Shown: positions 29,243 to 59,762 of the stretch, piece after piece
Numbering within the stretch: the stretch's first letter is position 1
Layout of the letters: every line of letters begins with the position of its first letter
Assembly (NCBI GenBank): GCA_949285135.1
Contig: CASDXO010000001.1
Span: 1-64,000 of the forward strand
Length of the DNA: 64,000 nt
Reading direction: 5' to 3'
From: an uncultured Phascolarctobacterium sp.
Lineage (GTDB): Bacteria > Bacillota > Negativicutes > Acidaminococcales > Acidaminococcaceae
Position numbers and translations under genes: made by a program
The notes under the pieces: model-generated
Database searches by the model: none
What the model was told of the DNA's origin: nothing
Seen by the model: the letters and a program-made list of their open reading frames with translations, nothing else

Positions 29243-29350
29243 AGATACAGGTCATATAACTGACGGAAAGTGGATTACCACATGGGAGTATGACCGGTGA
29301 CGCCGACCGTCTGGGCAGATGAACCAGTCAGTGTCGGTTTTTTTATTTTT
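29243..29350 (+). promoter_or_regulatory. ZTP (pfl) riboswitch with terminator
   Basis: GGTCATA (29250-29256) pairs with TATGACC (29289-29295) and encloses a GTGG/CCAC hairpin and the conserved GGGAG. The second conserved part CCGTCTGGGCA follows at 29308-29318. The downstream hairpin, CCGAC (about 29303) with GTCGG (29333-29337) plus CTGG/CCAG, ends in seven T. It overlaps the second conserved part, so binding of ZMP/ZTP should block termination. Confidence 0.85.
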
Positions 29351-49980: not shown

Positions 49981-51507
49981 ATGAGAGAAAATATGCATAA
50001 ATACGTTGCAAAGGCATCCATATCTGGAAAACAGAAAAGGACTTTATCCTGTCGTGGTAAAGCTTTATTTTCCTGCGGGCTCATCGCTGCTCTCCTGTTT
50101 CTGCCGCAGGCGGTTTGGGCGGACATTCCGGAAGGTAATGCAAGCGGACAGAATGCTATTGCTATAGGTAATAATTCTGAGGCAACCGCCGAAAACAGCA
50201 TTGCGCTCGGCTCTAATTCTGTTGCAAGCGAGGCAGATACTGTTTCCGTGGGGGGGAATGGCACAACACGCCGTATCGTGAACGTAGCGGATGGCACGGC
50301 AAATACTGACGCGGCGACGGTGGGACAGCTCAACAGCGGCGTTACGGCCCTTGGCAACGCGGTCGCAGGTATCATCGGAAGAAATGTCGTCTATAATGGC
50401 AATTCCTTCACAAGTGCGATCAACATCGGCGGAGCGGATTACTACACAGTAGAAGCTGCGCTGAACGCGCTTTATAACGGAACTGCGGGAAGTACAGGCG
50501 GCGCTGTCGGCGGGGATGAGATCGAAATCGACCCTGGCAAAGGCGCTATAACTATAGCTGAGGGCGGTAATATCCAGATTACGCAGGATGGCGCAGATGC
50601 CAACAAGTTCACTGTAAGCGTAAGCCCGACTCCGACTTTTACCTCCGTCTACGCGGACAGCGCGAATATCGGCGGCATAAGTATGAACTCTGGCGGCATT
50701 AATATGGGCGGCAAGCAGATAACCGGTCTTGCGGACGGTAACATCGCTATGGACAGTACTGACGCCGTAACAGGCAGACAGCTCTATGAGGTCAATAAAG
50801 AAATTACCAATATAGATGATAGAGTAACGAATACGGAGAAAAATGTTACGGACATCATAGACGGTATTGCTACAGGCGATATAGACATTATTACAGGGAA
50901 CAGTGCTGCCGTAAAGTATGACGACACTGATAAAACCAGAATTACGTTGAATGAAGGCGGAGAAGCGACCCAGGTTACTAACGTAGCAGACGGCAGGATT
51001 GCGGCGGGCAGCAGAGATGCGGTAACGGGTAATCAGCTTTATCAGGCTTACCAGCGTATGAACGACCTGGACAAGAGTATTGACGTGGTCGGAGCACATG
51101 CGGCAGCAATGTCGGCGCTGCATCCCGTACCGTACAATAAATATGAGCCGACGACTTTTTCTGCCGGCGTTGGTACCTATCATGACGAATATGCTATGGC
51201 GATAGGCGCCTTCCATTATATCCGGCCTAACCTCATGGTCAATGTAGGCGCTTCTGTATGCTCCGATGGCGATGTAATGGGACGTATAGGCTTAAGCGTA
51301 GCTCTGGGCAAGAGCACCAAAAAGCAGCCCGAGCTGGCGCATGACGTAGCAGGTATGCAGGAACAGATGTCTGTAATGCAGGCTAAATTGATAGCCCTTG
51401 AGGAACAGAACAGGCGCGATAAAGAAATCATTCAGAAAAATGCTGAGATAATGGCGCAGAATGAAAAGCTTATCAGAGAGCTGATGCAAAAATCTGCAAA
51501 TAAATAA
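49981..51507 (+). CDS. YadA-like trimeric autotransporter adhesin with C-terminal coiled-coil extension
   Basis: A 508-residue trimeric autotransporter. The signal peptide has a long N-terminal region (cleavage near residue 47, VWA|DI). YadA head repeats follow (NAIAIGNNSEATAENSIALGSN, about 57-85), then neck motifs ending DAATVGQLN and DAVTGRQLY, a short stalk, and the membrane anchor at about 372-443 (LHPVPYNKYEP to GRIGLSVALG). Normally the protein ends at the anchor, but here 65 more residues (444-508) form a charged coiled coil that would lie in the periplasm. ATG 49981 follows AAAGGATGAG; ATG 49993 is possible. Ligand unknown. Confidence 0.88.
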   Translation: MRENMHKYVAKASISGKQKRTLSCRGKALFSCGLIAALLFLPQAVWADIPEGNASGQNAIAIGNNSEATAENSIALGSNSVASEADTVSVGGNGTTRRIVNVADGTANTDAATVGQLNSGVTALGNAVAGIIGRNVVYNGNSFTSAINIGGADYYTVEAALNALYNGTAGSTGGAVGGDEIEIDPGKGAITIAEGGNIQITQDGADANKFTVSVSPTPTFTSVYADSANIGGISMNSGGINMGGKQITGLADGNIAMDSTDAVTGRQLYEVNKEITNIDDRVTNTEKNVTDIIDGIATGDIDIITGNSAAVKYDDTDKTRITLNEGGEATQVTNVADGRIAAGSRDAVTGNQLYQAYQRMNDLDKSIDVVGAHAAAMSALHPVPYNKYEPTTFSAGVGTYHDEYAMAIGAFHYIRPNLMVNVGASVCSDGDVMGRIGLSVALGKSTKKQPELAHDVAGMQEQMSVMQAKLIALEEQNRRDKEIIQKNAEIMAQNEKLIRELMQKSANK

Positions 51508-51521
51508 TATCTGTGTATTTA

Positions 51522-51565
51522 CAACCCATCTTCCTTGTTATGAAAGGATGATGGGTTGTTTGTTG
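51522..51565 (+). terminator. Terminator after the adhesin gene
   Basis: CAACCCATC with GATGGGTTG plus inner CCTT/AAGG, followed by a weak GTTTGTTG tail. Confidence 0.6.
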
Positions 51566-51585
51566 TATGTGATAAAAAGAGCAAT

Positions 51586-51715
51586 AAGGCAGTTTTTGTA
51601 ACGGAAAAAGTTTCCTGCAGCGGCACTCGAGTAGCAGCTTGCGAGAGAGTAAATAAAAATTTCGCAGTAAAATCTTGTCAGGGGGGGCAAAAGTGCTATA
51701 ATATGCGTAGATAAA
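51586..51715 (+). repeat. Duplicated upstream control module, copy 2
   Basis: Block 1 at 51586-51622 and block 2 at 51666-51715 match the module before the adhesin gene. Block 2 contains the porin promoter TTGTCA (51675-51680), 16-bp spacer, extended -10 TGC-TATAAT (51697-51702). The shared block 1 lies about 50 bp upstream of the -35 and could bind a common regulator. Confidence 0.7.
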
Positions 51716-51796
51716 AGGCAGGATAAGGGCCCGTCAATGCCCCTCCTCTTGGATCTGCGTTATTGCGAGTACCGCAGCTGAGCCTGCTTTTTATCT
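51709..51796 (+). promoter_or_regulatory. Structured 5' leader of the OmpM porin mRNA
   Basis: A 14-bp stem closes the element: 51709-51722 (AGATAAAAGGCAGG) with 51783-51796 (CCTGCTTTTTATCT), one G-T pair. Inside are two small hairpins, GGGC/GCCC (51727-51730 with 51739-51742) and CTGCG/CGCAG (51755-51759 with 51773-51777), giving a three-way junction. It begins at the expected transcription start. I match it to no known RNA family. A further 137 purine-rich bases lie between it and the start codon. Confidence 0.55.
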
Positions 51797-51933
51797 TGCC
51801 TATGTTATAAGGCGCAGGCAGGAAGAAAGCCGCAAACAGGCAGAGGAAACAAGGCAACTCTTGCGGGAAAGAAGGCAGAAGTCCTCCGGCGTTTTATAAA
51901 ATATAAAATGTTTTCCTAAAGGAGGAGACAAAC

Positions 51934-53163
51934 ATGAAAAAATCTTTAGTTCTCGCAATGGCTATGGCTCTCGGCGTAACTGCATCCGCATACGCTGCAA
52001 ATCCATTCTCTGACGTACCGGCTGGCCACTGGGCATACGACAGCGTAAACAAACTGGTTGCTGCTGGCGTAGTAGACGGTTATCCTGACGGCACCTTTGG
52101 TGGCGACAAACTGATGACCCGTTATGAAATGGCACAAATCGTAGCAAAAGCAATGGCAAAAGGCGCTGACGTAGATAAACTGGCAGCAGAATTTGCTGAC
52201 GAACTGGATACCCTCGGTGTTCGCGTTGCTAATCTCGAAAAGAAAGCTGACAACGTAAAGATCACCGGTGAAATCCGTTATCATTATGCAGATACTGATG
52301 GAGATACTGCTAAACTTGATGGTTGGGAAACTAAACTGCGTTCCCGTATCTGGGTAACTGGTCAAATCAATGATGACTGGACCTATACCGGCATGATTCA
52401 AAACGAACAAGATTTTGGTAATGATAATGGTGATGAAGATACTGAATTCCAACGCGCATACATTAACGGTAAATTAGGCGGCGTTAAAGTACAGGCTGGT
52501 CGCTATAATCTGCAATTAGGCGATAAGAACGTATATGATCATCGTTTTGATGGCGTACAACTTTCTTATGGCAAAGATGTTAAATTAACTGCTGGTTATG
52601 GACAAGCACACCAACAGAAAGCTGAATTTGATGCAACTGGTGCTGAAAGCAAATACAATGCTGATGAAACTTGGTATGCAGAAGTAAGCGGCAAAATCAG
52701 CAAACTTGGTTTAATGGGCGGCTACTATGACTTCTCCAATGTAAAAGAAGTTGAAGACGTAGATGATACCATTTGGGCTGTTGGTGCTGACTATGCATTT
52801 GATAAGAATGTAAAACTGGGTGCTTTGTACCTGAATGGTGATCAAGACCGTTACGATGGTTCTGATGACGGTTATGTAATCACTGCTTCCTACAAAGGCG
52901 CTAAAGCTTCCGATCCTGGTAGCTGGGGCTTAGTTGCTAAATACTATGATCAAGGTATGAGCACTTACATCGATCATACCATGAACGGTAAAGCAGATAG
53001 TTTAAGAACTGCTGATTATGAAGGCTTCAAGGGTTACAGCGTATTTGCTAACTATACCTTTGCTAAGAACATCGTTGGTCAGGTTGAATGGTATGACCTC
53101 GAATCTAAAGAAGGTAGCGTTGACGCAGAAACTCTGTGGACTCAACTCGTATTCACTTTCTAA
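51934..53163 (+). CDS. ompM: SLH-domain outer-membrane porin, OmpM type
   Basis: A 409-residue outer-membrane protein typical of Negativicutes. In order: signal peptide (1-21), one SLH domain (about 24-75, FSDVPAGHWAYDSVNKLVAAGVV... with TRYEMAQIVAKA), which tethers the outer membrane to peptidoglycan polyamines, a short coiled linker (about 78-108), and a beta-barrel that ends in phenylalanine (LVFTF) as porins do. AAGGAGGAG precedes ATG 51934. Codon bias suggests very high expression. It follows the adhesin gene and shares its upstream module. Confidence 0.93.
   Translation: MKKSLVLAMAMALGVTASAYAANPFSDVPAGHWAYDSVNKLVAAGVVDGYPDGTFGGDKLMTRYEMAQIVAKAMAKGADVDKLAAEFADELDTLGVRVANLEKKADNVKITGEIRYHYADTDGDTAKLDGWETKLRSRIWVTGQINDDWTYTGMIQNEQDFGNDNGDEDTEFQRAYINGKLGGVKVQAGRYNLQLGDKNVYDHRFDGVQLSYGKDVKLTAGYGQAHQQKAEFDATGAESKYNADETWYAEVSGKISKLGLMGGYYDFSNVKEVEDVDDTIWAVGADYAFDKNVKLGALYLNGDQDRYDGSDDGYVITASYKGAKASDPGSWGLVAKYYDQGMSTYIDHTMNGKADSLRTADYEGFKGYSVFANYTFAKNIVGQVEWYDLESKEGSVDAETLWTQLVFTF

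Positions 53164-58452: not shown

Positions 58453-59762
<1,310 letters not shown>

Follow-up and report, generated by a model that had tools for sequence, protein, structure and literature searches.

A conserved leader hairpin with a Yfr2-like loop upstream of OmpM and porin genes in Negativicutes and other Firmicutes

The window analyzed here, a 64,000-nt stretch from an uncultured Phascolarctobacterium sp. (family Acidaminococcaceae, class Negativicutes, phylum Bacillota), contains an ompM gene, the product of which combines SLH (Pfam, 2.6e-14) and Porin_4 (7.4e-8) domains (Table 1). In Veillonella, no outer-membrane transcripts are more abundant than those of OmpM (PMC5491611). The gene is preceded by a promoter of the form TTGTCA-16-TATAAT, with a TG before the -10 box (11/12 matches in a consensus scan), and a leader search recovered the promoter together with the first transcribed bases, recognizably kept as TTTACTGGGGGGGCAAACGTGTTATAATGGGCTTGTATAAAAGG, in another genus. 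Because the promoter is strong and recurs in this way, a transcript start near 51709 is a reasonable prediction, as is the resulting leader of ~225 nt up to the ATG at 51934, and the initial annotation had arrived at the same start and leader length. The consensus scan gave no terminator-like site in 51400–52200, and no Rfam 15 family reached its gathering score in the leader (51709–51934), in agreement with the earlier view that the leader is neither a terminator nor a recognized riboswitch. An inverted repeat at 51523–51563 (ACAACCCATC...GATGGGTTGT), which the scan did not list, is followed by a T-rich stretch and lies directly after a YadA-like gene (stop 51507); it is probably the terminator of that gene, in which case ompM would be transcribed as a separate unit. 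Elsewhere in the window, a ZMP/ZTP riboswitch (29246–29323) and a T-box leader (58471–58681) both score above the Rfam cut-off and are ordinary.

Table 1. Features at the ompM locus (positions in the window)
Feature	Position	Strand	Basis or detail
ompM promoter	51675–51702	+	-35 TTGTCA 51675–51680, -10 TATAAT 51697–51702
P0 with inner hairpins, lineage-specific 5' domain of the leader	51709–51796	+	Fold z -3.37; aligned in a congener only
Rod-like imperfect hairpin capped by H1	51801–51903	+	Fold of 51797–51912, z -2.30; adjoins P0
P1 5' arm, closing helix of the rod	51805–51815	+	Covaries with 3' arm in 33 leaders
H1, conserved apical hairpin GCAGAGGAAACAAGGCAACUCUUGC, 25 nt, 12-nt loop at 51846–51857	51840–51864	+	Covariation; 46.6 bits with model R1
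P1 3' arm, closing helix of the rod	51889–51899	+	Fold and covariation with 5' arm
Shine-Dalgarno AGGAGG	51920–51925	+	Read directly from the sequence
ompM gene, SLH and porin domains, 409 aa	51934–53163	+	ORF; Pfam

The predicted transcript begins with a stem, P0, of 14 pairs including one G-U (51709–51722 with 51783–51796). Its MFE of -37.4 kcal/mol compares with -26.0 ± 3.4 kcal/mol for dinucleotide shuffles (z -3.37; 2/200 shuffles equally good), which, together with the empty Rfam search, bears out the initial description of a structured, unrecognized RNA leader in the ompM mRNA. The 14-bp stem located exactly at the promoter-predicted start also stands, but the MFE structure encloses three small hairpins rather than the two proposed. 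A 321-nt leader probe, searched against 61 genomes, was matched in its 5' half in a single congener only; the other genera match mainly in the 3' half, from ~51839 on. In this sole aligned relative the paired bases of P0 are identical and leave no compensatory changes to score. Several genera have a different, unrelated hairpin in front of the rod and others have none at the place of P0. P0 was therefore rejected as a conserved element, since the congener alone aligns there, and may instead add stability as a lineage-specific 5' domain. The initial annotation was right about the leader, but chose its lineage-specific half: the covariance search of ompM leaders that it had suggested yields a structured element with compensatory changes in the neighboring half, the rod capped by H1.

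The GAG/CUC stem of H1 carries a 12-nt loop, GAAACNNGGNNA. In 39 family leaders, gathered by allowing as many as four mismatches to the core, paired stem bases vary in concert, the outer pairs being GC, UA, CG, or AU and an inner AU changing to UA. The loop departs little from GAAACNNGGNNA in these leaders, and likewise in the sets from the class and from outside it; the NN loop positions vary between paralogs of one genome. The stem covariation score is 0.330 in the class (59 sequences), compared with 0.112 when shuffled and at most 0.129 for slid partners, and 0.383 outside the class (0.151 shuffled; slid partners ≤0.182); in both sets the invariance of the loop and inner stem is partly due to the collecting pattern, of which the outer pairs are free. 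When sequences are folded individually, most leaders form an irregular ~100-nt hairpin with H1 as its tip; the mean z is -2.96 in 51 family leaders and -1.70 in 30 leaders from other families, and the rod is also present in leaders outside the class, as judged against mononucleotide shuffles only. In the family, the closing helix P1 pairs UUAUAA-NNNN with NNNN-UUUUAUAA; it covaries in 33 leaders, a signal that is inflated by the choice of the 5' anchor for best pairing. When whole rods were aligned globally with MAFFT and passed to alifold, only the H1 stem was recovered, because internal loops differ in size; a block alignment was used in its place. Competing folds of the rod region exist, since the MFE structure of the full 225-nt leader contains P0 but pairs the rod region otherwise. 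Two candidate features look like arms of P1 and were rejected: a second -10 box, GTTTATAA, located upstream of H1, and a separate hairpin formed by the AU-rich stretch that precedes the Shine-Dalgarno sequence.

Four strong matches to model R1 occur in the Phascolarctobacterium genome (46.6–37.8 bits; next 12.4), all before SLH porin genes, such that H1 stands in front of 4/5 of its SLH genes. The fifth SLH-porin gene (L210, C1:182200–184200, start codon near 510) has a short leader without H1 and a promoter-like sequence of its own, and may lie outside the proposed control. H1 is present in 54/59 genomes of the family (37/38 of those of good quality) and in 208/300 genomes of the class with R1, or 200/300 with R2 at a stricter cut-off; about one-third of the sampled class genomes gave no match. 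In seven other families of the class (~30 loci), an OmpM-type gene follows at every locus with enough DNA, mostly 33–76 nt downstream of the model match. Model R2, built from class members only, also matched in 43 genomes outside the class (E ≤ 0.001; 398 phylum genomes searched), where less than one chance match is expected if the rough E-values hold. Forty-one of these loci were examined, and all 40 with usable downstream DNA precede an outer-membrane protein-like gene, encoding signal-peptide proteins with an SLH domain or β-barrel character. Pfam was run on ten of these proteins, several of them without a match, for which the outer-membrane assignment comes from the signal peptide and resemblance; the gene downstream of L221 was recognized through its close relative L225. 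Gene content, and the outer membrane known for the group (PMC5007114), lead us to guess that Halanaerobiales are among the carriers outside the class. Scanning 84,980 species genomes for the pattern gave 35 stretches, labeled Phascolarctobacterium, Acidaminococcus, Dialister, Selenomonas, Schwartzia, Pelosinus, Veillonellaceae, and a few loosely named MAGs. One R1 match outside the class (G321), within a long open frame, looks like chance and was discarded. Three loci outside the class (L175, L178, and L179) share a second motif, roughly AGGAGGTGCCCCC, which precedes the H1 rod ~30–90 nt upstream of the H1 match and has no Rfam match.

The 5' stem of the E. coli ompA leader stabilizes an abundant mRNA against decay. 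P0 and the rod might similarly protect a message passively, with no specific ligand: in both systems an abundant message for an outer-membrane protein opens with a structured leader, a stem standing at the predicted 5' end; OmpM mRNAs are indeed present in very large amounts (PMC5491611); and several genera place a hairpin of their own in front of the rod. We consider this unlikely, because P0 itself is not conserved and, in contrast to the ompA leader, the H1 element has a loop that is fixed over many families on varying stems, which passive protection leaves unexplained. That H1 is no RNA element at all, but a DNA-binding site or a small coding region, is barely credible. Inverted repeats can bind dimeric regulators and an open frame runs through H1 in the window, but at all loci read the element lies in sense orientation inside the predicted transcript, its conserved loop is asymmetric and flanked by covarying arms, and in many leaders the open frames across H1 are merely short.

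The literature search returned no publication on an ompM leader motif, and the H1/rod element is a new RNA family in that it is in neither Rfam 15 nor the literature searched, although its general kind, a cis-acting leader RNA, is known. The gltD, ilvD, and potE motifs are likewise candidate structured leader RNAs from Veillonella and relatives, in the same class, but belong to metabolic or transport genes, and the main text of the report describing them makes no mention of outer membrane, porin, or S-layer (PMC8632094). A CsrA-binding leader was rejected for the family, the CsrA domain PF02599 being found in 0/19 of its genomes; other families have PF02599.

The nearest Rfam family is Cyano-1 (RF01701), i.e. 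Yfr2. Its four best matches in the Phascolarctobacterium genome are the four ompM leaders, at up to 36.6 bits (23.5 bits in the window), below the gathering cut-off of 41 bits, which was exceeded in 0/21 genomes; the model aligns full-length in three loci. As in Cyano-1, the leader element has its apical loop on a 3-bp stem with an outer interrupted stem. The 12-nt loop is almost the same (GAAACAAGGAAA in the Cyano-1 consensus; GAAACATGGCAA in Yfr2a, a primer for which implies CGAAACATGGCAAGACTCC, with the same loop), and in both RNAs the short stem is at the tip of an interrupted rod (PMC2662882). In contrast, the unpaired 5' UGUGUGAGGAG strand that pairs with Yfr1 in Yfr2 is not conserved in the leader element, being unmatched in L127, L128, and the window and partial in L129. 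Yfr2 is a free sRNA of cyanobacteria, although two of the three copies in Synechocystis start together with a downstream mRNA (PMC2662882), whereas the leader element is found in Firmicutes and, at the loci read, always stands in cis ahead of an outer-membrane protein gene; a free-standing sRNA with its own terminator was not found, there being no terminator-like site in 51400–52200 and a gene after every locus read. An sRNA processed from the leader is possible. The resemblance may reflect either common descent or convergence.

The mRNAs of outer-membrane proteins are classic targets of sRNAs. The conserved 5' motif of Yfr2 pairs with Yfr1, which itself targets cyanobacterial porin mRNAs, two in Prochlorococcus being its first shown targets (PMC6778093); no partner of the conserved Yfr2 loop was found in the literature consulted on this abundant cyanobacterial sRNA. 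H1 might base-pair with an sRNA aimed at all ompM mRNAs. We regard such pairing as improbable: no clear antisense candidate emerged in the Phascolarctobacterium genome, where the exact loop complements are the four leaders and one C2 site, and the variable loop positions differ among paralogs. There is also little likelihood of an intramolecular switch, in which pyrimidine-rich anti-Shine-Dalgarno stretches would pair with one of two partners, the Shine-Dalgarno sequence or H1, the GAGGAAAC of which resembles a ribosome-binding site. TTCCTC occurs in the 5' domain of 8/52 family leaders versus 0.6 in shuffles, CTCC is enriched between H1 and the start codon (34/88 versus 6.6), and in one genus of the family (L008, L009, and L032) the loop at the P0 position, GUUUCCUC, is the exact complement of GAGGAAAC. 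However, the 5'-domain enrichment is clear in the family only and not in 30 other-family leaders, such that the support lies mainly within the family, related sequences are counted several times in the enrichment, and the CTCC stretches are often the 3' arm of the rod. The GUUUCCUC hairpin loop of these three 5' leader domains is also similar to the anti-Shine-Dalgarno sequence.

The reading that we prefer, with a probability of roughly 0.6, is that H1 is a cis-acting leader hairpin read by a trans-acting factor, probably a protein, that coordinates the synthesis of abundant outer-membrane proteins. The tip of the rod would display the fixed loop on its GAG/CUC stem, and, with the OmpM/porin mRNAs of one cell carrying the same tip, a single factor could bind them all and would set their translation or decay together. 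The fixed loop positions are interrupted by paralog-variable ones, which suggests that a shape is recognized, in the simplest case by a protein, rather than plain base pairing. The hairpin with its compensatory changes, its place before outer-membrane protein genes, its spread, and its likeness to Yfr2 are observed, whereas we infer the candidate factor, most likely an RNA-binding protein contacting the loop, and coordinated outer-membrane protein output as the outcome. The different fold of the whole-leader MFE, the class genomes without a match, and the one SLH gene of the Phascolarctobacterium genome without the element count against this reading. More tentatively, and with the odds somewhat against it, Firmicutes with outer membranes might have in common an ancient post-transcriptional regulon, with a single RNA-binding factor reading a loop of the Yfr2 type in the mRNAs of major outer-membrane proteins, and cyanobacterial Yfr2 might carry that loop to bind or titrate a homologous factor.

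How the output of the most abundant outer-membrane proteins is adjusted is poorly known outside the Proteobacteria. The presence of H1 upstream of OmpM/porin genes in many families defines a candidate regulon, provides a bait with which to find the putative regulator, and ties these leaders to Yfr2, an unexpected link to an abundant cyanobacterial sRNA. The recurrence of H1 before outer-membrane protein genes, together with its near-Yfr2 loop, points to a shared, undescribed control of these abundant proteins.
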